NCBI GenBank assembly: GCA_903821695.1
Contig: CAIJLX010000072.1
Coordinates: 1-43,436 of the forward strand
Direction of reading: 5' to 3'
Length of the DNA: 43,436 bases
Source of the DNA: an uncultured Alphaproteobacteria bacterium
GTDB taxonomy: Bacteria; Pseudomonadota; Alphaproteobacteria; Rickettsiales; CAIJLX01
Shown: piece after piece, positions 5,514 through 36,283 of the stretch
Position numbering within the stretch: position 1 is the stretch's first letter
Layout of the letters: every line of letters starts with the position of its first letter
The notes under the pieces: model-generated
Told to the model about the DNA's origin: nothing
Seen by the model: only the letters and a program-made list of their open reading frames with translations
The model's database searches: none
Translations under genes and position numbers: made by a program

Positions 5514-5551
5514 ATAAAAAAGCCGCGAGAAGCATGTGCTTCTACGGCTTT
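5514..5551 (-). terminator. Rho-independent terminator after fic
   Basis: Read on the minus strand, an outer stem AAAGCCG/CGGCTTT and an inner stem AGAAGCA/TGCTTCT form a long hairpin followed by a run of six T. It lies just after the fic stop (5580) and just before the NlpC/P60 ribosome site, so it should end fic transcription and insulate the two genes. Confidence 0.85.
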
Positions 5552-5579
5552 GAAATTTTAATAATAAGCGGCTAAATGA

Positions 5580-7150: not shown

Positions 7151-7154
7151 GGGT

Positions 7155-8015
7155 TTATACCCTCTGTAGGTCGTTAGCCGTGGCTGAGGTGGCTAGCATC
7201 TTGTCCATGCCTGGGACGTAAGGCTCGCCGCGAAAGTTCACGGCATTGTTGAACTTGGCGATGCAGGTGCTGATGGTTTTGTCGCAGCCTGCTATCGCGT
7301 TGAAGGTATCGCCCACCGTCACATTGTTGGGCATGGGCAACACGAGGGTGAACTGCTTGTTCGAGAACTCTTTGATTTCCATGCGCCGCCCAGCATTCGC
7401 GCCCGTCAGCCACACCACTTCGCCGCCCGAGAAATATCCTGCTGCCTGCGTCATCGAATTGCTGATAAACACCTGCCTGCTACTGACAGTATTGACACTG
7501 CCGCCCACCGTGTAGCTGGCAAGGCTGGCTTTGCACCGTCCATCGCCAAAGATGGCGCGGCATGTGGGGCTATAGAGTTCCACAATATTCTGGCTGAGTT
7601 TTTGCGCCAGCCCACGCACTTCGGCGATAAACTGACCGTTCTTAAGCGTCACTTCCCCAAGCCAGCCGCGCCGATGCGTGATGATGCCTTGCGAGAGGTC
7701 GGTGACGTTCACCATGAAGATTTCAATCTCGGCGAAGTCGTATTTCCCCGCCATAATGTCGGCTTCGGTGATTGCCGCCGCGTCAAGGATTCCTGCCACA
7801 TCGAGATTATCGACGCTGAACTTGTCTTTGGTTTCCACGCTCGTGGGTGAAAAGCCCGTCGCGGCCTTATAAAGCTGGCTGCTCACGGTTAGGTCAGAGG
7901 TGTGATCGGTAAAGCCCATCACCGTGCCACCCACCAGCGTGAGTTTCCAGCACACGGCAAGGCTGGTGACTTCACCCGCCAGATGCGCGGCCATATTGCT
8001 TGAAGCGGTTCTCAT
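7155..8015 (-). CDS. DUF2163 / phage BR0599-type tail protein (Rhodobacter GTA gp13-like)
   Basis: This encodes 286 aa from ATG 8015, which has GGAG 8 nt upstream and matches the usual family start (M-R-T-A-S-S-N). DUF2163 occupies roughly residues 1-160: 'VCWKLTLVGGTVMGFTDHTSDLTV' and 'YKAATGF'. The BR0599 region at ~180-280 has the conserved Cys pattern 'CRAIFGDGRC', 'GCDKTISTC' and 'FRGEPYVPG'. In GTA-like tails this is a hub/baseplate component whose Cys cluster may bind an Fe-S cluster or metal. The frame stays open upstream through an unrelated small domain as far as the chaperone gene, which is described separately. Start at 8213 is an alternative and would give a 352-aa fusion. Confidence 0.88.
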   Translation of the reverse strand: MRTASSNMAAHLAGEVTSLAVCWKLTLVGGTVMGFTDHTSDLTVSSQLYKAATGFSPTSVETKDKFSVDNLDVAGILDAAAITEADIMAGKYDFAEIEIFMVNVTDLSQGIITHRRGWLGEVTLKNGQFIAEVRGLAQKLSQNIVELYSPTCRAIFGDGRCKASLASYTVGGSVNTVSSRQVFISNSMTQAAGYFSGGEVVWLTGANAGRRMEIKEFSNKQFTLVLPMPNNVTVGDTFNAIAGCDKTISTCIAKFNNAVNFRGEPYVPGMDKMLATSATANDLQRV

Positions 8016-8270
8016 AAGCGTATCTCCACAATCGGGATGGAACCCAGCCTCGGCATAATCCAGCAGGCGCAATAATGCCTGTCGGTCATAGCCGAGTACG
8101 TCGGTCACACTTAAAATGGTTGGAATGTCGAACCCTGCGATTTTACCGCTGGGATAAAGTTTGAACTGACCGCTACACCGAAGCAGCACTTCCCATGCCT
8201 CGAACCCTTCCATCGAATGCGGTTCGCTTTTGATGTAGGGGCATAACGGCTCGCCCGTGCTTTCGTTTAG
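8016..8270 (-). pseudogene. small phage protein frame without a normal start, in frame with the DUF2163 gene
   Basis: This frame reads L-N-E-S-T-G-E-P-L-C-P-Y-I and later 'EAWEVLLRCSGQFKLYPSGK', 'GFDIPTILSVTDVLGYD' and 'LLDYAEAG'. It resembles the small protein commonly encoded just after the tail assembly chaperone in alphaproteobacterial phages (recalled, not searched). The natural start position is occupied by CTA (8270-8268), which overlaps the chaperone stop TAA. The only in-frame ATG is at 8213, inside the conserved part. There is no stop before the DUF2163 start. Either the gene has lost its start and end through a deletion, or it starts at 8213 as a fusion. The expected tape-measure and DUF2460 genes are absent at this junction. 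Confidence 0.5.
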
Positions 8271-8779
8271 CTCGCCTTTGCTGCACGGGAGGGCTTCTTC
8301 GTGGCATGTTCTGCAATATCCTGACCCGCCGCCGAAGTGCCATTTACAACGAGCCCAGAGACGTTTCCCTCCGCGTCCAGCAGGGAAAGTGAAGCGGTGT
8401 ATTTCTTCCAGAAATCCTGCGCGATGAACCAAATATCCATGAGATCGTTCACGGCTTGATCATTCACCACCGCAGGCGCATCACCCGCGCTGTTCAACAC
8501 GCCTTGCCACTCGATCACCGCGCCGCGTGCCATTGCCTTGATAAGCAACGCTTCCGAAAGCCCGTGGCGGGTTTCTTCGTCGTCCACATCTGGCAAATCC
8601 GATATATCCGCACCCACTTCAAGGCGGGATTTACGCTCTTGCCGCCAGTCGGTGATCTGCTTGATGACGGAAGACTGCGCCGCACTCATAATGGCGGTAG
8701 AAAGTGGCCGCACTTTGAGTTTCACTTCGGCAGGCAAATCGAGCCAGTACGGTTCTTTTTTCAGATTTAATCGTAGCAT
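8267..8779 (-). CDS. phage tail assembly chaperone
   Basis: This encodes 170 aa with a strong Shine-Dalgarno (AAGGAGG, 4 nt before ATG 8779). It opens 'MLRLNLKKEPYWLDLPAEVKLKVRPL', a pattern typical of chaperones that describe the allowed range of membrane-free tail subunits, followed by a helical, acidic middle ('DISDLPDVDDEET', 'GLSEALLIKAMARG') and a Lys/Ala tail. The call rests on this opening, its size, and its place directly after the tail-tube gene, the canonical siphophage order. In such phages the chaperone coats the tape-measure protein during tail assembly, yet no tape-measure gene follows here. There is a 9-nt gap from the tail-tube gene. Confidence 0.75.
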   Translation of the reverse strand: MLRLNLKKEPYWLDLPAEVKLKVRPLSTAIMSAAQSSVIKQITDWRQERKSRLEVGADISDLPDVDDEETRHGLSEALLIKAMARGAVIEWQGVLNSAGDAPAVVNDQAVNDLMDIWFIAQDFWKKYTASLSLLDAEGNVSGLVVNGTSAAGQDIAEHATKKPSRAAKAS

Positions 8780-8788
8780 AACGCCTCC

Positions 8789-9675
8789 TTATGGGTAGCT
8801 GGTGACATCGTTCTTCAAAACGACGGTGACGGATTTACTGAGTGCGTCGTCATAGACGGCCTGCCAGTTGAAGCTGGCCTGCACGCCGCCTGGTCCCGAC
8901 ACGGGGATGCGCGGTCGCGGCAGATAAACTTCGTGGAATGTCCAAGTGAGTGAGAAGTTGTTCCCGTCTAATCCCGCCAGCTTGTAGGCAAGCTCCAATT
9001 CAATGGCGGTGTTGTTGATCGCGTCATCCACCAGCGTGGTGTCGGCAAAGCGCACGTCTATGCTGCCATTCACATTGATGATGGTGGGGTCAACCGCTTC
9101 AATCAGCCCATCATTGCGGATGGTCGGCACTGCCTGCAATCCGTTCGAATAGGTGAACTGTGCGCCCGTGATATTGGCCAAAGATGTGCCGTTGCGCTTA
9201 ATCGAGCCGTTGAACTGGCTGAAGGGTTTATACACTCGGGCTGTGGGCGTGCCGCCTTGTGTGGATGCAAAGCGCGTTTCCCCTTGAGCGATGATGTTAA
9301 GGGTAGCGTTCGCTGCACCTGAACGCTGAAAATTCAACGCCATACTGCCCAGCATACAGCCCGTATGCACGAAATAAGCTGGCACGTTGGCATGGCCGAT
9401 TTCCGCCGCGAAGGATGGAAGGCTTGCCGCGCCGCTGACAAAAGTGTGCGTGAAGCCGCCGCCTGAGAGCGTTGCACCGCTTGCCACACCGTTGGCATTG
9501 CCAGAAGCCAGCGTGAAGTTGTTGCCCGTCGCCCCCAGCGTATCATGGACGATATTGAGCTTGGTGCCGCCGCCGTTGGAATAAGTGGCAGGCGTGATGC
9601 TGGCATTGGCGGAGGCGTTTAGGTCAGTTGCCAGCTGGGTGAGCGTAGCGTTCAGGTTACCTGCATTGATGTTTG
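8789..9675 (-). pseudogene. phage tail tube protein, 5' truncated
   Basis: About 295 residues of a siphophage tail-tube protein are present. The C-terminal half is well conserved: 'FVSGAASLPSFAAEIGH', 'YFVHTGCMLGSMALNF', 'NGSIDVRFADTTL' and 'HEVYLPRPRIPVSGPGGVQASF', which form the tube beta-sandwich. It also carries an inserted Asn/Thr/Gly-rich domain ('NATLTQLATDLNASANASI'). The N-terminal strand region and start codon are missing. The frame runs into the 3' part of an oppositely oriented DUF2339 gene near 9675, and its only remaining starts lie in that foreign sequence. The truncation marks a recombination breakpoint, or an assembly join, at the end of the phage segment. Confidence 0.8.
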
Positions 9676-10493
9676 CGGGCAGTAGCCTGTTACTCCGCAA
9701 GCAAGCAGATGATCAGCTGGTAAGCAGTCTGGAAGTTGCAGCAATCGCACTGATTGGCGTGATGGGCTATTATCTTACCCGTCATGCCTTCCACATCGAT
9801 GAAAACGTATTATTCGTGAAAGCAGGCTTTATTGAGCGCGGTGTTATTACGAATATTCTTTTCCTCTATGGTCTTTCCTGCTTATGGATCGGCCGTGTGT
9901 TTACACGCAATACAATTAGCATTAGCGGTATTGCACTTTGTGGCATCGCGCTCTTCCGCATTTTCTATTTTGATCTCTTCATTTATAACCCGCTCTGGTC
10001 GCATCAATCCGTGGGCAGCATGCCCTTGGTAAATGGATTATTGCTGGCTTATGGCCTGCCTGCACTGTGGCTTACACAGGCAAACAGAGAAATGCGCTTA
10101 CTCGGGAATGAAGAGTATCGCTCTTATACCGGAGCATTTCTGCTAGGGCTCATTTTTACATTCTTATCCTTTAATATTCGCCAGCTTTTTCATGGTGAAT
10201 ATCTGGATACCGGCATTACCGACAATGCGGAAATTTATACCTATTCTGCGGCGTGGCTAGTGCTTGGTGTGGTGTTATTACTCGCTGGCACATTGCAGAA
10301 AGATAAAATGATCCGCAGTGCATCACTAGTCGTAATGCTGATGACTGTTGGAAAGGTCTTTCTCTATGACGCTTCTGAACTCACGGGTTTATATCGCGTC
10401 TTTTCGTTCCTTGGCCTGGGTTTAAGTTTAATTGCACTCAGCTGGTTTTATACCCGGTTTGTCTTTGGCAAAACATCACAGGAGAACATATGA
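9676..10493 (+). pseudogene. DUF2339 multi-pass membrane protein, 3' fragment
   Basis: About 270 residues of the C-terminal part of a DUF2339 membrane protein are present, from 'LLLRKQADDQLVSSLEVAAI' through some eight hydrophobic helices to 'FLYDASELTGLYRVFSFLGLGLSLIALSWFYTRFVF', the conserved DUF2339 ending. Full-length family members are usually 800-1000 aa, so most of the gene is missing. The frame is open upstream to 9585, but that stretch is antisense to the tail-tube gene. The stop overlaps the next gene by ATGA, showing an original operon with it. The exact breakpoint cannot be fixed and lies about 9672-9684. Confidence 0.8.
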
Positions 10494-22697: not shown

Positions 22698-22895
22698 CTA
22701 GTTTTCGTTATTTCTATTATCTTCTTTAAGCAACAACTCAAGTGCGACAAGGGCAGGACCTGGAATCGCTACCTTACCTGAAAGCCAACGCCGAACCGTA
22801 CTACCGTCAACCCGAAGTGCCTCCGCCATACGCGTCTGCCACCCCCAGTTGCCATATAACTGTTCACCAATGGCTCGAAGCTGTTCAGGCGTCAT
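22698..22895 (-). CDS. small helix-turn-helix DNA-binding regulator of the downstream operon
   Basis: This encodes 65 aa with AAGGA 4 nt before ATG 22895. A lambda-repressor-like HTH is visible: 'GWQTRMAEALRVDGSTVRRWLSGKVAIPGPALVALELLL' (residues ~17-58), with the recognition helix around 'STVRRWLSGK'. The protein is little more than the HTH, so it likely dimerises through its helices. It lies 27 nt upstream of the SPFH gene in the same direction, and its promoter is interwoven with a perfect 17-bp inverted repeat. Autorepression of the whole operon is therefore the simplest reading. Confidence 0.8.
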   Translation of the reverse strand: MTPEQLRAIGEQLYGNWGWQTRMAEALRVDGSTVRRWLSGKVAIPGPALVALELLLKEDNRNNEN

Positions 22896-22925
22896 ATAAT
22901 CCTTACAACATAGCTCATAGCGGTT

Positions 22926-22977
22926 AATTTAGCGCATAATGCACTATACGTCAATTGAAAATAGTGCATTATGCGCT
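22926..22977 (-). promoter_or_regulatory. operon promoter overlapped by a perfect 17-bp inverted repeat (operator)
   Basis: The arm AGCGCATAATGCACTAT at 22931-22947 is repeated exactly in inverse at 22961-22977, separated by 13 bp. On the minus strand TTGACG (22954-22949) and TAAATT (22931-22926) are 17 bp apart, and one arm fills the spacer while the other lies just upstream of the -35. Each arm also holds the near-palindrome GCATaATGC. A regulator bound here would block the HTH gene promoter. A weaker plus-strand pair (TTGAAA, 17 bp, ATTTGT) exists but is not convincing. Confidence 0.75.
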
Positions 22978-23060
22978 ATTTGTTGTTTTCAGCTTATTGC
23001 AATTGTGATCTAACAATCGGTGTTAATGGTTAAACACAGTTTAGGTTTCTGCGCTTATAA

Positions 23061-23195
23061 TTCCCTGCAATGTTCGGTAGGGAATTCCCATTAATCCATT
23101 GAAATTGCAAGTGTATCTGAGGGTTATTACGGCGACTTTATCCAATTTCCCTGCTTATTACTAAAATTCCCTGCAAAAATCCCAATTGCAGGGAA
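23061..23195. repeat. four TTCCCTGC(AA) boxes, two forming a 10-bp hairpin
   Basis: TTCCCTGCAA occurs at 23061-23070 and 23167-23176, TTCCCTGC at 23147-23154, and the inverse TTGCAGGGAA at 23186-23195. The last two arms form a perfect 10-bp stem with a 9-nt loop. The palindrome GGGAATTCCC lies at 23080-23089. These look like protein-binding boxes in the otherwise gene-free part of 22896-23593. No matching regulator can be named. Confidence 0.6.
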
Positions 23196-23241
23196 AATCA
23201 CAGTTTGGAATTCAAAGGATTACTGGAGTAGGAATATCTAG

Positions 23242-23547
23242 GTTGCGGCAAGGAAAGCTATCGCGATACTGCAAGCACCCCATCTAGTCCAAAAGCTAAC
23301 TTTTCTCAGTTGTGGCAAGGAAAGGTATCGGTACACTGCAAGCACCCCATCTAGTCCAAAAGCTAACTTTTCTCAGTTGCGGTGAGAATTGCTATCGCGA
23401 TACTGGAACCACCCCTTCCAGTCCAAAAGCTAACTTTTCTCAGTTGCGGCAAGGAAAGCTCTCGCCATACTGCAACCACCCCTTCCAGTCCAGAAGCTAA
23501 CTTTTCTCAGTTGCGGCAAGGAAACCTATCGCCATACTGCAACCACC
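23242..23547. repeat. 67-bp tandem repeat array, four full units plus a partial fifth
   Basis: Units start at 23242, 23309, 23376, 23443 and 23510, each exactly 67 bp apart, and the fifth stops after 38 bp. The best-conserved part is the end of each unit, AGTCCAAAAGCTAACTTTTC, with one substitution in unit 4, followed by TCAGTTGCGG. AAAAG/CTTTT can fold into a hairpin with a CTAA loop, and units 1 and 3 carry the palindrome TATCGCGATA. The remaining part varies by point changes only, so there are no independent spacers. The period is not a multiple of three, which argues against coding. The array ends 46 bp before the AT-rich gene at 23594. Confidence 0.9.
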
Positions 23548-23593
23548 GCCATTAAACAGAGCTCTGCCTGAGCAAATATTTGTGGGGGATTGA

Positions 23594-24223
23594 ATGCTCG
23601 GATCATTATTCGCCATGTTGGAATGGTTTATTAAGATTGTTCAGATTTTTCTACCTTGGCTTAAAAATAAGTATGGGAAGAAGTTCTTACTAGATATTGA
23701 TTTTAAACAGATTCTATTTTCTAGAATAGACTATTCTCGCAATATTAACCTTGATGGCAGATTATGTCTTGTTTTTCATAACATTAATATCTCAAATATT
23801 GGAGAAAAACCAACGACGCTAAAATCTCTCAATTTGATTTATAAATGTGAAAAAGAGTATGAAGCTGACTCCCTTGTAGTACCCACAACAACTTTAGAAA
23901 CTGGAAAGACAGTAATAATGCTTCGCTGCGAAAAAGCTAACGCGAACATAGTAGTGGTGTGGGATCATATTCGCCTCATGTTAGAAAAAAAACAAATTAC
24001 TCCTGTTAATGGGGTAATTTCTGGAAGTGCTGTTTTTGTTTTAAAACATGGTGTTAAAGTTGAAGACATAGAAAATATAACTCTTGTTATCAAAGATTTT
24101 GCAGGTAATTGCAAAACTCAGTCATTCCCAATTGATCCAAAATGGACACAAAATTTAGAATATAGTGTTGTTCATGCACGTTTAGAACAAAAGGAAAACG
24201 GTCTTGCTATTGCAGCTAATTAA
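23594..24223 (+). CDS. unknown AT-rich protein with an N-terminal membrane anchor
   Basis: This encodes 209 aa, preceded by a GGGGG run 5 nt upstream of ATG 23594. An N-terminal hydrophobic helix ('MLGSLFAMLEWFIKIVQIFL') is followed by a Lys/Asn/Ile-rich globular part with alternating hydrophobic residues typical of a beta-sandwich ('LCLVFHNINISNIGEKPTTL', 'VISGSAVFVLKHGVKVEDI', 'ITLVIKDFAGNCKTQSF'). I do not recognise a family. Codons are much richer in A/T than the flanking murG and SPFH genes, suggesting horizontal acquisition. The position, in plus orientation between two minus-strand operons and behind a tandem-repeat array, fits an inserted cargo gene. It could be an accessory defence or stress protein, but nothing in the sequence shows that. 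Confidence 0.7.
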   Translation: MLGSLFAMLEWFIKIVQIFLPWLKNKYGKKFLLDIDFKQILFSRIDYSRNINLDGRLCLVFHNINISNIGEKPTTLKSLNLIYKCEKEYEADSLVVPTTTLETGKTVIMLRCEKANANIVVVWDHIRLMLEKKQITPVNGVISGSAVFVLKHGVKVEDIENITLVIKDFAGNCKTQSFPIDPKWTQNLEYSVVHARLEQKENGLAIAAN

Positions 24224-24295: not shown

Positions 24296-25360
24296 TTATC
24301 CAAGCAATTTAATCACCACATCTGCCAATGCTGCCTCAGCGTCTGGCATGCTGACCGATTTGGTGGCCTCGGCCATGCTGGCTCGTTTTTCGGGGGATTG
24401 GAAGAGGGTTTGGAGGAGGTTTGTGAGGATCACTACGGTGAATTCGGTTTGCGGGATGATGATGGCGGCGCCGGCTTCTTTGAGCCACTCGGCGTTGGTG
24501 GTTTGGTGGTCTTCGGTGGCGTAGGGGTAGGGGACTAGGATCGAGGGGCGGCCGGCTACTGCTAATTCGGCGCAGGTGGAAGCGCCGGAGCGGCCGATCA
24601 CCATATCGGCACGGGCGAGCTCTAGGCTCATGTCGTCGATGAAGGCGGAGACTTTGGCTTTGATGTTATTGCGCATGTAAAAATCTTGCACGGTGCTGAC
24701 ATCGTCGGCACGGCATTGCTGCGTCACCCGCAATTTGCGTTGCATGTAGATGGGGAGTTTGGAGAGTGCTTGTGGGACGATTTCGGAGAAGATGCTCGTG
24801 CCTTGGCTACCGCCGGTGATTAGGAGATAGATTTCATCATCGTGGATTGAATAGATTGAATTGCGGAGTTTTTTGATCGAGGGGCGGATTGGGTTTCCGA
24901 CTAGGATGCATTTTCTTTTGCTATCTGCGGGTACAGCTTTGGTATTTGGGAAACTGATGGCGATTTGTTTGACGTAACGGGCGAAGATACGGTTCACTTT
25001 TCCCATGTAAGAATTTTGTTCGTGGAGCACGGTGGGCAGGCGTTGGAGTAAGCCCATTGCGACACCGGGGAAGCTTGGGTAACCACCGAAGCCGACGACG
25101 GCGATGGGTTTTACTTTGCGGAAGAAGAGGAAGGTTTCGATTAGCCCTGCAACCAACCCGAAAATACCACGTGGGGAGAGAGGGCCGGCATGGATGATGT
25201 GATGGGGCACGGCGTTTAAGGCCGCCGCGAATTTTTGGATGCGGTGGTCCGTGAGCAGGATAGGGTTATAGCCACGGTTTTTGAGTTCGGTGCCGAGGGC
25301 GATGGCGGGGAATACGTGGCCGCCAGTGCCACCTGCAGCGAGGATAATGGTTTTATTCAT
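24296..25360 (-). CDS. murG: UDP-GlcNAc:undecaprenyl-PP-MurNAc-pentapeptide N-acetylglucosaminyltransferase
   Basis: This encodes 354 aa, the normal family length. The N-terminal glycine-rich loop 'LAAGGTGGHVFPAIALG' and 'VVGFGGYPSFPGVAMG' form the lipid I acceptor side, 'HEQNSYMGKVNRIFA' is a MurG hallmark, and 'ITGGSQGTSIFSEIVP' with 'VIGRSGASTCAELAVAGRPSILVPYPYATEDHQTTNAEWL' forms the UDP-GlcNAc side. It converts lipid I to lipid II on the inner face of the inner membrane. It begins 2 nt after ftsW and is the last gene of the dcw cluster here, whereas murC, murB and ddl usually follow in alphaproteobacteria. Confidence 0.97.
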   Translation of the reverse strand: MNKTIILAAGGTGGHVFPAIALGTELKNRGYNPILLTDHRIQKFAAALNAVPHHIIHAGPLSPRGIFGLVAGLIETFLFFRKVKPIAVVGFGGYPSFPGVAMGLLQRLPTVLHEQNSYMGKVNRIFARYVKQIAISFPNTKAVPADSKRKCILVGNPIRPSIKKLRNSIYSIHDDEIYLLITGGSQGTSIFSEIVPQALSKLPIYMQRKLRVTQQCRADDVSTVQDFYMRNNIKAKVSAFIDDMSLELARADMVIGRSGASTCAELAVAGRPSILVPYPYATEDHQTTNAEWLKEAGAAIIIPQTEFTVVILTNLLQTLFQSPEKRASMAEATKSVSMPDAEAALADVVIKLLG

Positions 25361-25362
25361 GG

Positions 25363-26451
25363 CTACGTTGATATCTTAATCTGCCGCCGTGTCAATGCCA
25401 GCACCATGCCGATCGTGATCGCCGAACCGAGGATCGAGGAGCCGCCATAGGAAATAAACGGCAATGTCATACCCTTAGCAGGCAACAGCCGCACTGCAAC
25501 GCCCATATTCACAAACGCCTGAAAGCCGAAAATAATCAGCAAGCCAGCGGTGGCGAGGATGATAAAACGGTCATTCTGCTGATAAATCCGCCAGAAACCA
25601 CGCAGAACTAAGGCGGCATAAAGGATCACGATGAGGATGCAAACGACGATGCCGAATTCTTCGCCAGCAACAGAAAAGATAAAGTCAGTATGAGAATCGG
25701 GCAGGCTGTGTTTGACCACACCTTCGCCAGGGCCTCGGCCGAAAAGGCCACCGCTTTCGAATGCTTCGATGGATTTTTCCACTTGGTAATTTTCGGATTG
25801 CTCGGGCTTCATAAAACCATCAATCCGCTCGCGTACGTGATGGAAGCCGTGATAGGCGGCGAACAGGCTTAGCACACCCACGAGAGCTGCGATTACGACA
25901 TAGCGTACGGGTAATCCAGCTAGGAAAAGTTGTGCACCGAATACCATGCTGATGGCGATGGTCATGCCTACATCGGGCTGTAGCAGGAGGAGAAAAATGA
26001 CGATGAAATAGAGGAGTAGTGGTGCGCGATAATTGAGTAGTGGTTTTGGGTTTTGCATGCGTGAGAGCACCCAAGCAACTAACACTACGAAAAAGGGTTT
26101 TATCCACTCGGATGGCTGCAATGAAAAGAAACCTAAATCAATCCAACGTCTGGCGCCTTTTATTTCGGTGCCGATGATTAGTACAACCATCATGAGAAGC
26201 AGCATGCTGCCAAAGCCAATCACTGCGATGCGGCGAATGGAGAGCGGTGGTAAAAAAGAAAGTCCAACTAAGATGCACGCACCAAGGCCCATAAAAATAA
26301 GTTGGCGTTGGGCGAAATAAAAAGCGGGGAGATTATGTCTGTCGGCGATGGCGGGGCTTGCGGCCATGACTAGCACAGCACCCACTGCCATCAGCAACAT
26401 GACGAGAGTAAAAAAGAGGCGGTCTGTTGTACGCCACCATTGCCCCCACAT
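25363..26451 (-). CDS. ftsW: SEDS-family peptidoglycan polymerase / cell division protein FtsW
   Basis: This encodes 362 aa with about ten transmembrane helices. Signatures are 'GAVLVMAASP', 'GARRWIDLGFFSLQPSEWIKPFFVV', 'LLLQPDVGMTIAIS', 'ESGGLFGRGPGEGVVKHSLPDSHTDFIFSVAGEEFGI' (the conserved SEDS loop with its catalytic Asp region) and 'LPAKGMTLPFISYGGSS'. FtsW polymerises lipid II at the septum together with the transpeptidase FtsI, encoded six genes upstream. It lies 1 nt after murD and 2 nt before murG. Confidence 0.96.
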   Translation of the reverse strand: MWGQWWRTTDRLFFTLVMLLMAVGAVLVMAASPAIADRHNLPAFYFAQRQLIFMGLGACILVGLSFLPPLSIRRIAVIGFGSMLLLMMVVLIIGTEIKGARRWIDLGFFSLQPSEWIKPFFVVLVAWVLSRMQNPKPLLNYRAPLLLYFIVIFLLLLQPDVGMTIAISMVFGAQLFLAGLPVRYVVIAALVGVLSLFAAYHGFHHVRERIDGFMKPEQSENYQVEKSIEAFESGGLFGRGPGEGVVKHSLPDSHTDFIFSVAGEEFGIVVCILIVILYAALVLRGFWRIYQQNDRFIILATAGLLIIFGFQAFVNMGVAVRLLPAKGMTLPFISYGGSSILGSAITIGMVLALTRRQIKIST

Positions 26452-26452
26452 G

Positions 26453-27733
26453 TTATAGCGCCTTCACTAAGTTGCTGAAAATCTCGCCACGTTCTTCGAA
26501 GTTTTTGAATTGGTCAAACGACGCGCAGGCGGGGGAGAGGAGCACCGTTGCTTTGCTCAATGTGCGAGCTTTTTCGTAAGCTTGCTTCACTGCTTTGTCG
26601 AGTGTGCCACAGCGCACGAAGGGCACATGATTTTGATCTAAGGTTTCTGCAAAAAGATCTTGTGCATCGCCAATTAAATACGCGCATTCGATGCGTGGGA
26701 AGAGTGGTTTCAATGCTTCAATGCCACCCTCTTTTGCTTTGCCACCAGCAATCCAGAGAATGGGTTTATCATAACTGAGCAATGCTTTTTCGGTGGCCTC
26801 TGCATTGGTTGCTTTGCTATCATTAATAAAGAGTACACCATTTTTTTCGGCGACTCGTTCCATGCGATGGGCGAGGCCTTTGAAGCTTTGAATGCCTGTG
26901 ATGATTTTTTCATGTGGGATATGAAGTGCGCTGCAAGCGGCATACGCGGCGGCGATATTTTCTTTGTTATGTGCGCCAGGTAGATAAGGCAGTGCACCTA
27001 AACCTAATTCATCCACTTTACCGAAAGCGGAAATAGGAATCATTCTGGCAGATGTTACATTCGACGCAGCGATTTTTTTTGTATGTGGATTATCGACGCC
27101 AATGACTGCCACATCTTTGGATGTCTGATTTCTGAAGATTCGGTTTTTGGCTTTGATATAACCATCCATGTCACCATGCCGGTCTAAATGATCGGGTGTC
27201 ACGTTTAGTAATATCGCGACGTTGAAACGAGTTTTATCGAGCAGATCGAGTTGATAGGAAGAGGTCTCGATGACATAAATGCCATCTGCACCTAAAGGCG
27301 ATAATTCGAGGGCGGAGATGCCGATATTGCCACCGACTTGGCAAGCAATATTGGCTTCACGAATAATGTGACCGATTAATGCAGTGGTGGTTGATTTTCC
27401 GTTGGTGCCGGTGATGCCGACGAAGCGTACATGGGATTGGCTGAGGTATAATAATTCGATATCGCAAATGATAGGCACATTGTGTTTTTGCGCGAGCGTT
27501 ACGACTTTATGTGGCACCGGATGGGTGAAGGGAATGCCGGGGCTTAAGACTAAATAGGAAAGTATTTGCCAGGGCCATTTTTCGATTTCGAGTGAATAGT
27601 CGCAGGTGCTTTTATCATCCCACGCGACGATGTTGGCGCCACTTGCGGCGAGAGCTTTGATAGCGCTGGTTCCTGCTTTGCCAAGTCCGAAAACGCCTAC
27701 GGTTTTATCTTTTAAGAAAGGGAGGGGGATCAT
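26453..27733 (-). CDS. murD: UDP-MurNAc-L-alanine--D-glutamate ligase
   Basis: This encodes 426 aa. It has an N-terminal Rossmann-like domain ('[21 protein letters not shown]'), a central ATP-binding P-loop '[21 protein letters not shown]' (near residue 110), '[20 protein letters not shown]' with the conserved His/Asp, and a C-terminal domain '[25 protein letters not shown]' and '[11 protein letters not shown]'. It adds D-Glu to UDP-MurNAc-L-Ala in the cytosol. The start overlaps the mraY stop by 4 nt. Confidence 0.96.
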
Positions 27734-28818
27734 CTGAGTTTAAGAGTCGAAAGTCCGATGAGTGCAAAGATAATAGCGACGATCCAGAAACGGATGACGA
27801 CTGTTGGTTCACTCCAACCGAGCTTTTCGAAATGGTGATGGATGGGTGCCATTTTAAAAATTCGTTTGCCGGTGGTTTTGAAGGAAATGACCTGCAGGAT
27901 TACTGACACTGCTTCGACGACGAATAAGCCACCGAGGATAGAAAGTACTAATTCGTGCTTTGTAATAACGCTCATGGTGCCGATGGCACCGCCGAGTGCG
28001 AGACTGCCTGTATCACCCATGAATATTTTGGCAGGTGGTGCGTTGAACCATAAAAAGCCTAAACCAGCACCGAGCATTGCGGCACATAATACGGTGAGTT
28101 CACCTGCGCCAGGGATAGCGATAATTTGGAGATAGTTGGCGAATTTTGCGTTGCCGGTGAGGTAGGCGATTAAGGCAAAGCAGCATCCAACGATCATGAT
28201 AGGGCCGATAGCAAGACCATCTAAACCATCAGTCAAATTAACGGCATTCGATGCGCCGACGATCACTAATAATCCGAAGACGAAATAAAAGAGCCCGAGA
28301 TCGATCAATACGCTTTTGAAAAAAGGAACTGCCATGTGTGTAGCGTGGTGGCCGGGGGCTATTTTGGAAATGAGGATGCAGGCCAAAAGTGCGATGACCG
28401 ATTGGCCGACCAATTTCTGTTTGCCACTGACGCCTTTGGTGTTCCGCTTGGTGACCTTTAAATAATCATCCATGAAGCCGATGAAGCCATAGGCGGCGGT
28501 TACCAATAGTACAATCCAGATATAAGGATTGTCGAGATCGGCCCATAATAAGGTTGAGATAAAGAGTGATCCTAAGATCATCAACCCGCCCATCGTGGGG
28601 GTGCCTTTTTTGGTGAGCAGGTGGCTAGCGGGTCCATCTTCCCGGATAGGCTGGCCTTTGCCTTGTTTGGCTTTTAGCCAATGGATGAGCGGGGTGCCCC
28701 AGGTGAAGCAGATGAAGAGCGAGGTGAGCATTGCGCCGCCACTACGAAATGTGATGTAGCGGAAGACGTTAAAAAACGAGAACTGATCAGCTAGCGGAAC
28801 GAGCAGGTGATAAAGCAT
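27730..28818 (-). CDS. mraY: phospho-N-acetylmuramoyl-pentapeptide transferase
   Basis: This encodes 362 aa with ten transmembrane helices. It begins '[31 protein letters not shown]', the canonical MraY start, and overlaps the end of murF by 32 nt. Cytoplasmic loops carry '[13 protein letters not shown]', '[11 protein letters not shown]', '[16 protein letters not shown]', '[15 protein letters not shown]' and '[13 protein letters not shown]', including the metal-binding Asp residues and the His triad. It transfers phospho-MurNAc-pentapeptide to undecaprenyl phosphate, forming lipid I. Confidence 0.98.
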
Positions 28819-30190
28819 AGGTCTTTAATTTCTCCGCAATTTTATAAATGTGACTACCATGGGAACCTTTGACGAGCAGTGTATCTCCCGTTTTAAGCAC
28901 GGATTTCAGGGCTGGCAAGAGATCTTCCGCTTTTTCGAGATGCGGGCCACGTTGGGCGGGCGACAAAGCGGCGTTGAGATGTTGCATATTGCCGGCAGCG
29001 GTGAGGACTAGATCGATATCTTTTAAACCATCAGCGAGGTCTTTGTGGAACTGTACAGAGTCTTTTCCAAGCTCTCGCATTTCACCCAATGCAGCGATGG
29101 TGCGTCCGTTTTTTGCTTTGCTTTTTAAGACGGCGAAGGATGCGCGCATAGAAGCTGGGCTCGCATTGTAACTATCATCGATTAGGGTAAAGCGAATGCC
29201 TTCCCAATCGATGTAGTAACTGGAGCCACGGCCTTCGGCAGGTGTATATTGTTTATAGGTGAGCGCAGCCTTCTGAATATTTGCTTCGAGTGCTTCGATG
29301 CCGGCTAATACGGCGAGACTATTTAAGGCGATGTGGCGGCCGATGAAGGGCATGAAATAGGATAATTTCGTGCCACGAATATTGGCGGTGATTTCTTGGC
29401 CATCATTTTTTTCCTGGATTTCCATGAGGCCAAAATCTGCATCGGGTGATGCACCAAATAAGGTGATCATTTTAACACCAGATTTTTTTGCATGTGCCAA
29501 GAGCCGATCTTTATGTGCGCTATCGGCGGGGAGGATGGCGATACCTTCGGGGAGTAGCCCTTCCATGATTTCGGATTTTGCATCGGCGATCTCAGCGACG
29601 GAGTTGAAGAACTCTAAATGAACGGCTTCGACATTGGTAATAATAATCGCATGTGGTTGCACTAATTTGGTGAGTGGGCGGATCTCATTAGCATGGTTCA
29701 TACCCATTTCAAAAATGCCGAAATCAGAAGCAGGATCGAAGCGGCATAATGAGAGCGGGACGCCGAGATGATTATTATAATTTCCCTCAGTGGCATAGGT
29801 GGTGCCTTGGGCAGAAAGCAGAAGTTTCAGTGCTTCTTTTGTGCCAGTTTTTCCTACACTTCCGGTGATGCCGATCAATTTGCCACGTGCTCGTGCTCGG
29901 TTAAAATGTGCTAAATCCCACAATGCTTTTTCGACATCATCGACGACGAGTAATGGAGCACGTTCGAGACCTTTTGGAATCTCACTTACCACTGCTGCGG
30001 AAGCACCTTTTTCGAGGGCGGATTTTACGTATTTATGGCCATCGACATTTTCGCCTTTTAGGGCAAAAAATATTTCTCCGCCTTTGATGGCACGGGAATC
30101 TATTTCAGCGCGATTTGCTTGCCAGGGGGCGAGGGATTTTCCGCCGGTTGCTTTTTCTGCGTCGGTTGCTTTCCAGAACATTACAGACAT
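28787..30190 (-). CDS. murF: UDP-MurNAc-tripeptide--D-alanyl-D-alanine ligase
   Basis: This encodes 467 aa. It has an N-terminal substrate domain ('[28 protein letters not shown]'), a P-loop '[21 protein letters not shown]' (around residue 112), '[24 protein letters not shown]' and a C-terminal domain '[20 protein letters not shown]'. It joins D-Ala-D-Ala to the UDP-linked tripeptide. It overlaps murE by 10 nt and mraY by 32 nt. Confidence 0.95.
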
Positions 30191-31575
30191 GCGCTTGCTA
30201 CTTTCTTGTCGCTAAAAGGATGTTTTGTTGCGCCGATAATTTGATATTCCTCATGGCCCTTGCCGGCGATTACTACTACATCACCCGGTTTGGCTAGCGA
30301 GATGGCATGCTGAATTGCTTTGGTGCGATCGCCGATTTCTTTTGCGTTCGGACAGGTCGCTAATATTTCTTTGCGGATTTGATCGGCATTTTCGGTGCGA
30401 GGATTATCGTCGGTTACGATGATGGTGTTGGCATGTGCGTTGGCGAGGGCACCCATTAATGGGCGTTTGCCTTTGTCGCGATCGCCACCGCAGCCAAACA
30501 CGAGGATGATGTTGCCAGTGGCATGGGGGCGGGCGGCGCGTAATAATTTTTCGAGCGCATCGGGTGTGTGGGCGTAATCAATGATGACGGAGGCACCGTT
30601 TTTCTCGCCGACTTTTTCCATGCGACCAGGTACGGAAGTGAGTTTGGTAAGGTGAGGGAGGATGTCGTCTAGTTTGACTCCGCAGCCCATGATAAGGCCG
30701 ATGGCGCAGAGGATGTTTTCGATTTGGAAAAGGCCTAGTAGAGGAATATTCAGATGGTGTGAATTGAGAGTAAAACTAAAGCCAGTCGCAGTCGATTTTA
30801 TTTGGCTGATTTTGAGGATATCTGCTTTGGTGCCGAAATCGATTAACTGTAAATTATTTTGTTTGGCAATGTTTTTGAGGGCGGAGTATTCGGCGATATC
30901 TGCGTTTACTACGGCCGCTTTTTGCACATGCTTAAACAATAATGCTTTGGCTTCGAAATAGGCTTCCATGGTGCCGTGATAATCGAGGTGGTCACGGGTG
31001 AGGTTGGTGAAGCCACCGGCGGTTAGTTTTAAGCCGGCTAAGCGGGATTGGTGCAAGCCATGGCTGGAGGCTTCCATGGCGACATGGTTTATGCCACGGG
31101 TTTTTAAATCGTGAAGAGTTTTGTAGAGTGTGACGGTGTCGGGTGTGGTCATGGCGCCGTCGTGGGTGAGTTGTTCGTTTTCGATCACGCCGATGGTGCC
31201 TAGGGAGGCGCTTTTTAATCCCATCAGATGCCAGAGTTGGCGGACAAAATGAACGGTCGAGGTTTTGCCGTTGGTGCCGGTGACGGCGATGATGGTTTCG
31301 GGTAATGGCGCATAAAATTTAGCGGCGATTTGGCCGAGTGCTTCGCGTGGATTTGGTGTGACGATGACGGGGATGGAGAGGTCGGTTATCTCATGATCGG
31401 TAAGGATGGCGGCGGCGCCTTGTTTGATGGCTTGGGGGATTAATTGGGTGCCATCTGATTTTGTGCCTTTGAAGGCGGCAAATAACGTACCGGGTTTAAC
31501 AGTGCGCGAATCTTCGCTTAATGCGGTGATTGGAATTGCAGCGGCACCAGCCCATAAATCACTGAGCAGAGGCAA
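30181..31575 (-). CDS. murE: UDP-MurNAc-L-Ala-D-Glu:meso-diaminopimelate ligase
   Basis: This encodes 464 aa. Signatures are 'ALSEDSRTVKPGTLFAAFKGTKSDG' (N-terminal domain), P-loop 'IIAVTGTNGKTSTVHFVRQLW', 'TNLTRDHLDYHGTMEAYFEAKALLF' and 'VIIDYAHTPDALEKLLRAARPH'. Near the end, 'VTDDNPRTENADQI' holds the DNPR motif that selects meso-diaminopimelate over lysine. This indicates a Gram-negative type peptidoglycan. It overlaps ftsI by 17 nt. Confidence 0.97.
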   Translation of the reverse strand: MPLLSDLWAGAAAIPITALSEDSRTVKPGTLFAAFKGTKSDGTQLIPQAIKQGAAAILTDHEITDLSIPVIVTPNPREALGQIAAKFYAPLPETIIAVTGTNGKTSTVHFVRQLWHLMGLKSASLGTIGVIENEQLTHDGAMTTPDTVTLYKTLHDLKTRGINHVAMEASSHGLHQSRLAGLKLTAGGFTNLTRDHLDYHGTMEAYFEAKALLFKHVQKAAVVNADIAEYSALKNIAKQNNLQLIDFGTKADILKISQIKSTATGFSFTLNSHHLNIPLLGLFQIENILCAIGLIMGCGVKLDDILPHLTKLTSVPGRMEKVGEKNGASVIIDYAHTPDALEKLLRAARPHATGNIILVFGCGGDRDKGKRPLMGALANAHANTIIVTDDNPRTENADQIRKEILATCPNAKEIGDRTKAIQHAISLAKPGDVVVIAGKGHEEYQIIGATKHPFSDKKVASACL

Positions 31576-33259
31576 GTTTGCGCTCCTTCACTTCATAATC
31601 AATACGAATAGCTTCACGGACGCCAGGTGCATTTTCATCGACAGGTTCAACGCCAAGCATCGGTGCAATTTGAGTGATGATGCGGCCAGCAGCAGGAGCC
31701 GCTACAATGCCGCCAGTGGCATAGCCACCGCTTTCTGCGAGGCCTTTAGGTTCGTCTACCATTACGAGTACGGCGTAGCGCGGTTTGTTGATTGGGAATA
31801 CGCCGATGAAGGAGGAGAGGCGAGCATCTTTACTATAATGACCATCACCTAGTTTTTCGGCGGTACCAGTTTTTCCGCCGACCAAATAGCCGGCAACGTT
31901 TGCATTTTTGCCCGACCCATTGGTGACGACTAAGCGCAATAAACGGCGTATAGAATCAGATGTGCGGGCTTTAACAAGCCGAGTGGAATCGAGTGGTTCA
32001 TCATGTTTAATGATGGTGGGTTGGTGCATCATGCCGCCATTGACCAAGCCGCTGATGACGGAGATGAGATGCAATGGGCTGACCGCGATGCCGTGGCCGA
32101 AGGAGATGGTCATGGCGCTGGTTTTGGTCCATTGTTTTGGATAGAGCGGGTGTGGTTTTTCGGGAAGCTCTATTGCGATAGGTTTTAGCAAGCCCGCTTT
32201 TTTGAAGAATTTTTGTTGCGCCTCAGCGCCGACATCTAAGGCCATTTTCGCGCTGCCGATGTTGGACGAATACATGAATACTTCGGGCACGCTCAACACT
32301 CTTTTTTGGGCGTGGAAATCATTGATTTGGTAACGGCCGATTTTGATGGGGTTAGTGGCGTCATAGCTGTCGCCCATATGAACACGTCCGGAATCGAGCG
32401 CCATTGCCATGTTGATGGTTTTCATGGTGCTGCCCATTTCGTAGACGCCGGAAAGGGCACGGTTGAACATGCCGTTTGCATCACCTTTGGTAAAGCGGTT
32501 GGGGTTGAAATCAGGCAGGCTGATGAGACCTAAAATCTGACCATTATTGACATCCATTACTAACGCGGAAGCACCAATAGCACGGAACTTACGGATAGTT
32601 TGTTCAAGCTCAGCTTTGAGGCTGTTTTGTACTCGGACATCTAAGGTAAGGGCGACGGGTTTATTGTCGCTCAGCATTTGGTCGTCATAGGTTTTTTCCA
32701 TGCCGGAGAGGCCGTGGCCATCCATACCAACATAGCCTAATACATGCGCGAAGAGATCGCCTTGCGGATAGATGCGGCGTTGCTCGGCTTGGAAATCTAG
32801 GCCGGGAATGCCGAGATTGTTGACGGCCATTTCCTCTTTCGGCGTGAGGTTGCGTTTGAGCCAGACGAAATTTTTGCGGGCGCTAAAACGTTCGCGCAAG
32901 AAGGCAGGAGATAAATCGGGGAAGGTGCGCGAGAGTTTTTTGATGGCGTCTTCTTTATCGATCATCACCCGTGGGTTGGCGTAGAGCGATTGGGTGGTGA
33001 GGTTGGAGGCGAGCAACACGCCATTACGATCGACGATATCGGCACGTTGGATGAGTGAGGCGGTGGCATCGAGCGAGTTGGAAGTGGCGGCGGTATCTTG
33101 CTCGTGATAAACGCTGCTGACGCCTAAATCCATTAGGCGGCCGCAGAGTAACATATAGAGTGTGGCCATCATGAAGATGCAGAACACCAAACGGCCGCGC
33201 ATGCGCTCGAGCGCTTTTTTGCCTTGGCCATCGAGCATTGCAGGTTGCAACATCATCAT
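31559..33259 (-). CDS. ftsI: septal peptidoglycan transpeptidase FtsI (PBP3)
   Basis: This encodes 566 aa with one N-terminal anchor helix ('LVFCIFMMATLYMLLCGRLM', ~25-45), a pedestal domain containing 'RADIVDRNGVLLASNL', and a transpeptidase domain with 'YEMGSTMKTINMAMAL' (SxxK, Ser near 277), 'MYSSNIGSAKM' (SxN) and 'GGKTGTAEK' (KTG). It cross-links septal peptidoglycan with FtsW. Three tandem ATGs (33259, 33256, 33253) could start it, and the first overlaps the ftsL stop. At 566 aa it is a typical alphaproteobacterial size. Confidence 0.96.
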   Translation of the reverse strand: MMMLQPAMLDGQGKKALERMRGRLVFCIFMMATLYMLLCGRLMDLGVSSVYHEQDTAATSNSLDATASLIQRADIVDRNGVLLASNLTTQSLYANPRVMIDKEDAIKKLSRTFPDLSPAFLRERFSARKNFVWLKRNLTPKEEMAVNNLGIPGLDFQAEQRRIYPQGDLFAHVLGYVGMDGHGLSGMEKTYDDQMLSDNKPVALTLDVRVQNSLKAELEQTIRKFRAIGASALVMDVNNGQILGLISLPDFNPNRFTKGDANGMFNRALSGVYEMGSTMKTINMAMALDSGRVHMGDSYDATNPIKIGRYQINDFHAQKRVLSVPEVFMYSSNIGSAKMALDVGAEAQQKFFKKAGLLKPIAIELPEKPHPLYPKQWTKTSAMTISFGHGIAVSPLHLISVISGLVNGGMMHQPTIIKHDEPLDSTRLVKARTSDSIRRLLRLVVTNGSGKNANVAGYLVGGKTGTAEKLGDGHYSKDARLSSFIGVFPINKPRYAVLVMVDEPKGLAESGGYATGGIVAAPAAGRIITQIAPMLGVEPVDENAPGVREAIRIDYEVKERKLASAQ

Positions 33260-33582
33260 GGCGCTACCGATGCGGATTCGGTTTCTTCTTTAGTGTGAGT
33301 GAGGGCGAGCACGGCGGCGTTTTCGCTATAATATTGGGTGCTTTGCTGGGTCGCCAGTTCGGACATGTTTTCTTTAACCAACGTCGCGATGCGCTGGGGT
33401 TGGGTGAGGTAGGCCAACTCGGCTTGCATGACATGGATCGCTTCATTATCGGCACGAATCTGGCGGTTGATCTCTTGTAGATTGTCTTTTAAATCGCGCA
33501 CTTCATTTTCGACGATGAAGAGGCTGGCGGCGATGGCACCGAAGCCGACGACTGCAAACATGATGATGCGGAAACGGTTCAT
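33256..33582 (-). CDS. ftsL: cell division protein FtsL-like
   Basis: This encodes 108 aa with one N-terminal membrane helix ('IIMFAVVGFGAIAASLFIV') followed by a periplasmic coiled coil ('ENEVRDLKDNLQEINRQIRADNEAIHVMQAELAYLTQPQRI'), the usual architecture of the FtsL/FtsB family. FtsL bridges FtsB and FtsQ and activates FtsWI. The sequence itself is poorly conserved in the family, so the call leans on its place between rsmH and ftsI and on the topology. It overlaps rsmH and ftsI by 4 nt each. Confidence 0.88.
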   Translation of the reverse strand: MNRFRIIMFAVVGFGAIAASLFIVENEVRDLKDNLQEINRQIRADNEAIHVMQAELAYLTQPQRIATLVKENMSELATQQSTQYYSENAAVLALTHTKEETESASVAP

Positions 33583-34538
33583 GCGGCTTCTACCTCAGCA
33601 TAGGTGCGTTCAGCAGCACGGAGTTTGGCGGAACGGGCACGAGGGTTGGTGCGCACTTCATTTTCGCTCGGCAATACAGCTTTGCTGGAGAGGAGTTTGA
33701 ATGTGGGTTTGCGGGTGTCTTCCGCAGTTTGAGGTAAGTGGCGAGAGGTACCACCGGTTTTTTTACCGGAGCGATCGGAGAGGAATGATTTCACAGCAGC
33801 GTCTTCTAATTCGTGGAACGAGACGATGACTAATTTGCCTGTGGGTGTGAGCAATCGCTCGGCGGCTTCGAGGGCGTATTGGAGGGCTTCCAGTTCGCGA
33901 TTGATATAGATACGGATGGCTTGGAAGCTTTTGGTGGCGGGGTTAATGGTATGTTTGCCGTGACGCACAGCGCTCTTGATAATATCTGCGAGCTCTAGGG
34001 TACGAGTGATTGGTTTTTCGGCGCGCGCTTTGACGATGGCGTGGGCGATGTGGCGAGATTCACGTTCGCCGCCGAAGGTGAAGAGTATATTGGCGATGTC
34101 TTTTTCGGCGAAGGAATTGACAATGTAGGCGGCGTCCGAGCCTTGTTTATCCATGCGCATATCGAGTGGACCATCAAGCTGGAACGAGAAGCCACGATCG
34201 GGTGCCTCAAGTTGCATTGAGGAGACGCCGATATCTAATACGATGCCATCTACGCTCGAGATGTTTTGCTCGGAGAGGAGGGCTTCCATCTCGCCAAAAT
34301 TACCCTCTAATAACTTAAAATCGGCCGGGTGTTTTTGGTGGAGAGCGTTGGCGAAGATTTGGACACCGGGATCGCGATCAACCCCAAAGACTTTACAACT
34401 CGCCGTTTCCAAAATGGCCGAGCTATAACCGCCCGCCCCGAATGTCCCATCCACATAGACGCCTCCTTGTTTTGGTTGCAAATAGTTAAGCACTTCAGCC
34501 AGCATCACTGGTGTATGCACGAGCCCTTCGTAACTCAT
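33579..34538 (-). CDS. rsmH: 16S rRNA (cytosine-1402-N4)-methyltransferase RsmH
   Basis: This encodes 319 aa. The SAM-binding motif 'YVDGTFGAGGYSSAILE' near residue 28, 'VFGVDRDPGVQIFANAL', 'DGIVLDIGVSSMQLEAPDRGFSF' and 'PLDMRMDKQG' are hallmarks of MraW/RsmH, as is 'ATKSFQAIRIYINRELEALQYAL'. It methylates C1402 in 16S rRNA at the P site. It is second in the dcw operon, directly after mraZ with a 4-nt overlap. Confidence 0.97.
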   Translation of the reverse strand: MSYEGLVHTPVMLAEVLNYLQPKQGGVYVDGTFGAGGYSSAILETASCKVFGVDRDPGVQIFANALHQKHPADFKLLEGNFGEMEALLSEQNISSVDGIVLDIGVSSMQLEAPDRGFSFQLDGPLDMRMDKQGSDAAYIVNSFAEKDIANILFTFGGERESRHIAHAIVKARAEKPITRTLELADIIKSAVRHGKHTINPATKSFQAIRIYINRELEALQYALEAAERLLTPTGKLVIVSFHELEDAAVKSFLSDRSGKKTGGTSRHLPQTAEDTRKPTFKLLSSKAVLPSENEVRTNPRARSAKLRAAERTYAEVEAA

Positions 34539-34996
34539 GCCGCCCCACCACTTTTTAATTGCAGGGTTGCACGTTTCGTTTTGGCCAGCTCACGTGCTTT
34601 CGCTGCGTAATCTGCTAGCTGCGCTGGGTTCCAAATTTCGAATGTTTCACCTTTGCCGACGAACGCGGCTTCATCTTTAATTTTCGCAGTGAGTAATAAT
34701 TCTTCGGGCAACATGACTCGACCTTCGGAATCAAACGCAAGCTGAATACTACCTCCCAAGATGCTGGTCGCGAAGGCGTCACGCTCGGTCGAGAATGGGT
34801 CGAGCGCATCAATCGAATCGCTCAAACGTTGGATGCGAGCCATGCCGCAGGCTTCGATGCAAGGGTTTACGAATGAGCCGTAAGCAATAATTCCCATGAA
34901 GTCTTCTTTCGCAAGCACGGCACGGAACGAGGCAGGCACTGAGACCCGTCCCTTTTTGTCGATCCGGTTTTGGTAAGTAGATAGAAAAAGTGCCAT
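34535..34996 (-). CDS. mraZ: transcriptional regulator MraZ
   Basis: This encodes 153 aa containing two AbrB-like MraZ repeats: 'YQNRIDKKGRVSVPASFRAVL' (residues ~8-28) and 'SIQLAFDSEGRVMLPEELLLTAKI' (residues ~85-108). MraZ forms a ring-shaped multimer that binds TGGGN direct repeats and controls the dcw operon, usually as a repressor. Three such boxes with exactly 10-bp period lie just upstream of this gene. It is the first gene of the operon. Confidence 0.96.
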   Translation of the reverse strand: MALFLSTYQNRIDKKGRVSVPASFRAVLAKEDFMGIIAYGSFVNPCIEACGMARIQRLSDSIDALDPFSTERDAFATSILGGSIQLAFDSEGRVMLPEELLLTAKIKDEAAFVGKGETFEIWNPAQLADYAAKARELAKTKRATLQLKSGGAA

Positions 34997-35002
34997 GCGC
35001 CC

Positions 35003-35071
35003 TGGGTTGTTATGGGATAATATGGGAAAATTATGCTCTTAAATGGGAAAATGCAAGTAAATTGTGGATAA
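35003..35071 (-). promoter_or_regulatory. mraZ promoter region: MraZ boxes, -35/-10 and a DnaA box
   Basis: TGGGT, TGGGA and TGGGA begin at 35003, 35013 and 35023 on the plus strand, so TGGG recurs with 5-bp gaps, the known MraZ-box pattern. A fourth TGGGA is at 35044. On the minus strand TTGCAT (35056-35051) and TAATTT (35033-35028) are spaced 17 bp, which places the three boxes at and just after the likely start point. TTATCCACA, a perfect DnaA box on the minus strand, sits at 35071-35063, 6 bp upstream of the -35. Negative control by MraZ is likely. DnaA input is inference. Confidence 0.75.
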
Positions 35072-35156
35072 ATACGCCGTGGGATAAATCCGAAAAAAGA
35101 CACTTCCGGGGTTCCGACTCTCACCATAGAAGCTCCATGTAGCAGCGAGGTAACAG

Positions 35157-35630
35157 ATGGCTTCAGTGGTTTCGAAATGGTTCAGCAAAAAACAAACGCA
35201 GACAAAAAAGCGTTACCGACCAGAGGGCAGGCAAGTGGTGTTCCAGTCGCTGGTGCAAACCCCAGGGAAGCCGGTTTGGACGCCACGGGAATATCAAAAA
35301 TTTGCTGATGAAGCATATACGCGGAATGTGATTACTCATCGAGCGATGGGCCTTGTTGCACAAGGTGCTGCAGGGGTTCCCTGGCTATTATATAATGGTA
35401 AAGGTGAGGCGCGGCAGGAGGTGAAAAACCATCCGGTATTGTCGCTGCTGAAAAACCCGAATCCGCATATGAATGGTTCTCAGTTTATCGAGAATTTGAT
35501 TACGTATCGGCTGATTAGTGGCAATGCATATGTGCTCGCGATTGGACCCACGGGCGGTGCGCCGATGGAGCTGCATTTGCTGCGGCCGGATCGGGTGCAG
35601 GTGATTGCGGGGCGTATTGCAACGGTCTAG
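35157..35630 (+). pseudogene. HK97-family phage portal protein, 3' truncated
   Basis: This frame has 157 codons, while portals of this family are about 400 aa. The N-terminal portal pattern is clear: a basic start ('VVSKWFSKKQTQTKKRYR'), 'YTRNVITHRAMGLVAQGAAGVPWLLY', 'HPVLSLLKNPNPHMNGSQFIENLITY', 'ISGNAYVLAIGP' and 'MELHLLRPDRVQVIAGR'. Normal portals continue with the stem and crown, but here the frame stops after 'IATV'. A good ribosome site (GAGGT) precedes ATG 35157. A DUF2793 gene follows 8 nt later, so everything normally between portal and fibre (protease, capsid, tail) has been lost. Confidence 0.85.
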
Positions 35631-35638
35631 GGAAAATT

Positions 35639-36283
35639 ATGGTCACATCTACCAATTTAGCATTTACGTTTATTGAACAAAGCCAATCGCAAAAAGAAGT
35701 CACCGCCAATGCTGCGCTAACGACAATCGATGCGTTGCTCAACACCGGTGCAATCGACAAAGATCTCGCCACACCTCCTGGCAGCCCTGCGACGGGTGAT
35801 TTATATATAGTAGCGGCATCACCGACGGGTGCGTGGTCTGGCAAAGCAAACAATATTGCTTATTATAATCAGGTTTGGAAATTTGTTGTGCCGAAAGAGG
35901 GTATGCGACTCTGGGTGAGGGATGAAGATAAAATCTATGTCTGGAATGGCAGTGCTTGGGGCTTGATTGCGATCACCGAATTTGTAGTGGGTAGAATCGA
36001 TACGGTAGCGAATAAAGATTATACGCTCGTGGTTGATATGCCCTATGAGGCAGTGATTACGGAAACGACTACTCAAAGCGTATCAGGCACTTGTACAGCG
36101 ACATTCAAAATTAATACGACAGCGATGGGCGGTACGGTGAATAGTGTTTCTAGCACAAAGCAATCACGCACGCAGAGTAGTGCGAATGCTGCAGCTATCG
36201 GTGATAAAATCGTGATGACGGTTTCGAGCAATTCTTCCTGTCTCGATCTGGCGTATCGGGTGGCCTACACGAGGAGCCTATGA
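35639..36283 (+). CDS. DUF2793 phage protein, second copy
   Basis: This encodes 214 aa. The N-terminus carries the same signatures as the gene at 388-1326: 'FIEQSQSQKEVTANAAL', 'PPGSPATGDLYIVA', 'PTGAWSGKANNIAYY' and 'WKFVVPKEGMRLWV'. Roughly half the positions match, so the two are paralogues rather than a recent duplicate. The C-terminal part is different and beta/Thr-rich ('SGTCTATFKINTTAMGGTVN', 'DKIVMTVSSNSSCLDLAYRV'). It lies after the truncated portal and overlaps the next gene by 4 nt. The start ATG 35639 follows the portal stop closely, with GGAAAA as a weak ribosome site. Confidence 0.83.
   Translation: MVTSTNLAFTFIEQSQSQKEVTANAALTTIDALLNTGAIDKDLATPPGSPATGDLYIVAASPTGAWSGKANNIAYYNQVWKFVVPKEGMRLWVRDEDKIYVWNGSAWGLIAITEFVVGRIDTVANKDYTLVVDMPYEAVITETTTQSVSGTCTATFKINTTAMGGTVNSVSSTKQSRTQSSANAAAIGDKIVMTVSSNSSCLDLAYRVAYTRSL

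Follow-up and report, generated by a model that had tools for sequence, protein, structure and literature searches.

A 67-bp head-to-tail repeat array downstream of murG in an alphaproteobacterial genome, probably an intergenic minisatellite

The dispersed short intergenic repeats of bacteria include the MITE, REP and Rickettsia palindromic element types, and the iterons of plasmids and phages are direct repeats in non-coding DNA with a usual length of ~20 bp. Long-period tandem arrays are exemplified by VNTR-141 and VNTR-105 of Wolbachia, two intergenic loci with periods of 141 and 105 bp that have been attributed to slipped-strand mispairing. Their periods are 98-99% identical and contain hairpins with 9-bp stems, and their copy number varies between strains (PMC3287509).

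Here, we analyzed a repeat locus in the 2.1-Mb, IS-rich genome of an alphaproteobacterium, located in a stretch of 43,436 nucleotides that we refer to as the window. Like iterons, the locus consists of direct repeats in non-coding DNA, but its 67-bp period exceeds ~20 bp and is not phased, no Rep gene or strict DnaA box was recognized, and there is no plasmid or phage match. It shares with MITE, REP and Rickettsia palindromic elements the occurrence of a short non-coding sequence at several separate intergenic sites; in contrast to these families, it has only two or three diverged extra copies, lacks a consistent palindrome or terminal repeats, and is tandem at one site. The nearest likeness is to the Wolbachia VNTRs (PMC3287509), which are likewise intergenic head-to-tail arrays of few long-period units in an alphaproteobacterium, although the units described here are only ~86% alike and lack a consistent hairpin. 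The array is ordinary in kind, and we read it as a probable intergenic minisatellite (VNTR-type locus). The array and its immediate surroundings in the window comprise the following features:

22698-22895, minus strand: 65-aa HTH ORF (PHROG 3626, weak YdaS/HTH matches)
22896-23593 (~700 bp), no strand assigned: array-bearing intergenic region between the 65-aa HTH ORF (minus) and the 209-aa orphan ORF (plus)
23242-23308, plus strand: tandem unit 1, starting within the core at GTTGCGG and carrying TATCGCGATA
23309-23375, plus strand: tandem unit 2
23376-23442, plus strand: tandem unit 3, carrying TATCGCGATA
23443-23509, plus strand: tandem unit 4
23510-23552, plus strand: partial unit 5 (~43 bp, core only)
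23594-24223, plus strand: orphan ORF P0001 (209 aa), 41 bp downstream of the array

Tandem Repeats Finder reported a single tandem array within the window, at 23242-23552, with a period of 67, 4.6 copies, 86% matches, 0% indels and a score of 459. At a lag of 67, the array is 86% identical to itself across 244 positions, while the top 244-bp stretch elsewhere in the window reaches only 41% at lags of 20-500; a chance origin of the periodicity is therefore excluded. The head-to-tail 67-bp repeat noted in a preliminary description of this DNA is accordingly real, except that its right end lies at 23552 and not at 23547.

The array is laid out as five cores (~39 bp) and four spacers (~28 bp), with unit 1 opening inside a core and the last unit stopping after one. 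Any two of the four full units are separated by 5-14 differences, which leave 16 of 67 columns variable and are all substitutions, in agreement with the earlier statement that the copies diverge by point changes only. We also recovered the exact TATCGCGATA matches that had been reported for two units, which are units 1 and 3 of the five. The longest stretch invariant in the four full units measures 20 bp (AAGCTAACTTTTCTCAGTTG; permutation p ~0.03 for a stretch chosen post hoc), and TTTTCTCAG is found again in solo copies outside the array. Some variants are shared block-wise, namely GCACCCCATCTAG in units 1 and 2 and CCACCCCTTCCAG in units 3 and 4; variants common to adjacent units would fit stepwise local duplication.

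As in minisatellites, the units follow each other head to tail at constant period, and the position is non-genic without a preserved reading frame. A coding repeat, already discounted in the preliminary description, is rejected because 67 is not a multiple of three and no conserved ORF runs through the array. The same applies to CRISPR: the would-be "spacers" are near-identical, and the whole 67-bp period recurs with substitutions instead of alternating with unique spacers. Tandem promoters are rejected because no promoter-like site was found inside the array, which has no terminator-like site either, and integron attC arrays are rejected because inspection by eye did not reveal their R''/R' core consensus.

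The intergenic position and tandem units of small-RNA size might suggest that the units are small-RNA genes or structured RNAs, and a small-RNA array was raised earlier as a possibility. Such an array should fold more stably than shuffled sequences and into a structure common to the copies. However, the array region is not more stable than shuffles (z +0.41), the predicted folds differ from unit to unit and are unusual in only one of six sequences tested, and neither an Rfam match nor a promoter-like site is present. Folding of the unit, which had been proposed as a check, hence gives no indication of a shared structure, and we regard an RNA array as extremely improbable. The AAAAG/CTTTT hairpin that had been described as conserved is a 5-bp, A/T-rich stem; it is disrupted in one unit, with AGAAG as left arm (from 23492), is missing from the solo copies and is unused in the predicted folds of the units.

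The genomic setting differs between the two sides of the array. To its right, a division and cell-wall cluster on the minus strand (RsmH, a PBP2/FtsI-type protein, a MurD-like protein, FtsW and MurG) runs down to murG, where the usual continuation (murC, murB, ftsQAZ) is absent and the orphan ORF and array region come next; to its left lie Band-7, DUF4178 and spermidine-synthase-domain genes. Third-position GC skew on the plus strand is very strong across the cluster from 24.3 to ~36 kb, mostly +0.5 to +0.7 whichever way the genes run, including on a plus-strand gene at 35157. To the left of the array it is ~0, so that the strong asymmetry (24296-36000) stops abruptly at the array. Together, the skew change and the break in gene order after murG place the array at a junction in both composition and synteny.

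Across the window, cumulative GC skew is lowest around 23-24 kb, which could point to a replication-origin element (an iteron or DnaA-type array), in line with the earlier suggestion of an iteron-like element. We nevertheless reject this reading as very unlikely, because the skew changes from none to strong, not from negative to positive, and the intergenic region has no strict DnaA box, only two sites at two mismatches. None of the window genes examined was noted as origin-linked. An iteron-type origin would have an adjacent Rep gene or DnaA boxes, whereas the neighbors here are Band-7, the HTH ORF, the orphan ORF and MurG. The repeat has no match in phages or plasmids, and a phage or plasmid origin of the array is likewise rejected.

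Using the 48-bp core as query, we searched the genome for further copies with BLAST and a sequence profile (R1). The search yielded only two, both diverged and single, to which a partial copy can be added:

C54:33-77, minus strand: solo core copy, just downstream of a KdpE-like regulator gene
C38:39832-39873, plus strand: solo core copy
C38:39760-39800: partial inverted copy

The preliminary description had considered that the unit might be a common dispersed repeat of the species; instead, it is rare in the genome. Contig C54 carries kdpA, kdpB, kdpC, kdpD and the KdpE-like regulator gene. A GTA 'megatron' protein encoded in the window marks the organism as a probable alphaproteobacterium, and the best KdpA relative, from a Rickettsiales MAG, suggests on the basis of one gene that it may belong to Rickettsiales. 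Contig C38 terminates ~200 bp past its core copy, and a small ORF (MDIVYLLLGIGFFGV...) that begins ~95 bp after the copy is, as judged by eye, cut by an IS that is abundant in the genome. At the far end of C54, inspection by eye revealed a similar IS end beside the tail of such a small ORF, followed by a kdpF-like ORF and kdpA. A single kdp operon therefore probably lies between the C38 and C54 copies, although the two contigs are not joined. The operon itself appears to be IS-interrupted in the small ORF upstream of the kdpF-like ORF (MDIVYLLLGIGFFGV... / ...SIALVCLFDKLSRG; L040 5833-6076 and L039 7980-8150). An end of the abundant IS (CACTGTTAACAAACCTCAAGTTTGAT...) also lies at 43357-43391 of the window and at no fewer than 39 further places in the genome, mostly at contig ends, which indicates that this IS fragments the assembly.

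The partial C38 copy and the C54 copy have in common TATTCCCAAG[CT]AA...AAATTT...TTCTCAG, a motif pair that occurs nowhere else in the genome, and their alignment scored better than 300 of 300 shuffles. The units might accordingly represent the termini or relics of a small, degenerate MITE-like element that was tandemly amplified at the array, with the inverted kdp copies as traces of a former mobile cassette. The copies to either side of kdp are indeed mutually inverted and share TATTCCCAAG[CT]AA...AAATTT...TTCTCAGT, and the C38 copy opens with TCTCAG and closes with CTGAGA. Yet TCTCAG...CTGAGA is confined to the C38 copy, a consistent terminal inverted repeat was not seen across copies, nor an evident target duplication, and dispersal amounts to two diverged core copies plus a partial one in 2.1 Mb, a very low copy number. 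Moreover, no transposase with these ends was seen, and the abundant IS of this genome has others. We therefore consider a mobile-element origin improbable.

The location of the solo copies also bears on the main rival to the minisatellite reading, in which the array clusters the sites of a DNA-binding protein with a further role at kdp; the tandem copies would mediate cooperative control of P0001 (or of the HTH gene), and the single copies would act at kdp. This reading could account for the only other genome copies flanking the kdp operon, the 20-bp invariant stretch in the units and the position of the array directly upstream of an ORF. On the other hand, no known promoter coincides with the copy downstream of kdpE, 67/10.5 equals 6.4 and thus no whole number of helical turns, and no link between P0001 and potassium transport could be detected. 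P0001, whose N-terminus is hydrophobic, had no relatives in Pfam, NCBIfam, PADLOC, PHROGs, PDB, phages, plasmids or 216 other genomes of the order.

The binding cluster is further weakened by the absence of the motif at other kdp loci. When the profile was run against 43 kdp loci of other bacteria, including the closest one from the Rickettsiales MAG, there were 0 matches at E-values up to 10, and we conclude that the element does not represent a conserved operator of kdp. A KdpE-type operator, for which the motif should be conserved upstream of kdp in relatives, is rejected on the same grounds (0/43). Since the only shared sites flank kdp and are unconserved at kdp elsewhere, the multi-copy protein-binding array proposed earlier finds no support, and we judge a binding cluster to be unlikely. 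A narrower version, which would make the unit the operator of a lineage-specific regulator with genome-wide targets limited to kdp, through the flanking sites, and the lineage-restricted P0001 behind its five-site array, seems remote. Should one regulator indeed bind both the kdp copies and the array, its sites would make up a small potassium-linked regulon that includes an orphan target.

Beyond this genome, the element was not recovered. The core had no BLAST match in 35 relatives, none of them from the same genus or family, and its profile had none at E-values up to 0.001 in a sample of 384 other genomes of the class. Among 174 other genomes sampled from the order, the profile gave only chance-level partial matches: seven genomes contained weak ones (E 0.01-0.05, 14-16 bits), which we attribute to chance, since 174 genomes searched at E 0.05 should yield roughly this many. 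An exact 23-base pattern was absent from GTDB genome contigs and IMG/VR. Within 440 kb of the host genome sampled, the array was the only long-period non-coding tandem array, the only other period above 24 bp being 51, a multiple of three; tandem expansion therefore appears to be uncommon in this genome.

Taken together, we consider it probable that the array is a minisatellite, neutral or nearly so, made by slippage or unequal exchange, and that it has no dedicated function. The exact 67-bp period with divergence by substitutions only supports this reading, as do the location between genes without a coding or RNA-structure signal, the variants that adjacent units share in blocks and the precedent of intergenic Wolbachia VNTRs of similar period and copy number (PMC3287509), and the few genome copies and the absence from relatives and collections are as expected of a fast-arising, lineage-specific repeat. 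In such a scenario, a short and rare intergenic sequence with the core CTTTTCTCAGTTGCGGCAAGGAAAGCTATCGCNATACTG, of which solo or partial copies exist at kdp, would have been duplicated head to tail with a spacer of ~28 bp at a rearrangement-type junction downstream of murG. The array would then have grown stepwise to 4.6 copies via replication slippage or unequal exchange, and its copies may later have diverged through point mutation. Copy number would be expected to vary between strains.

Several observations weaken the minisatellite reading. The invariant 20-bp AAGCTAACTTTTCTCAGTTG and the recurrence of TTTTCTCAG in solo copies could reflect selection; all other genome copies reside at one operon, kdp, seemingly in a non-random manner; and the array is the only one of its type in the 440 kb sampled. 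As a minisatellite, the locus would have little import other than in marking the genome junction and, possibly, in strain typing.

The window contains further elements besides the array. Upstream of the 65-aa HTH ORF of the PHROG 3626 family (22698-22978), a perfect 18-bp inverted repeat (TAGCGCATAATGCACTAT / ATAGTGCATTATGCGCTA) with 13 nt between its arms is a likely autoregulatory operator. Between 23056 and 23195, several copies of TTCCCTGCAA are present, including one inverted pair (TTCCCTGCAA-N9-TTGCAGGGAA) at 23167-23195; this repeat is unique in the genome and has two IMG/VR contig matches. Positions 388-9700 hold a tail/baseplate module, from either a gene transfer agent or a prophage, that includes GTA 'megatron' NF048004 and tail proteins; a Fic-domain protein is inserted into it at 5580-7112.
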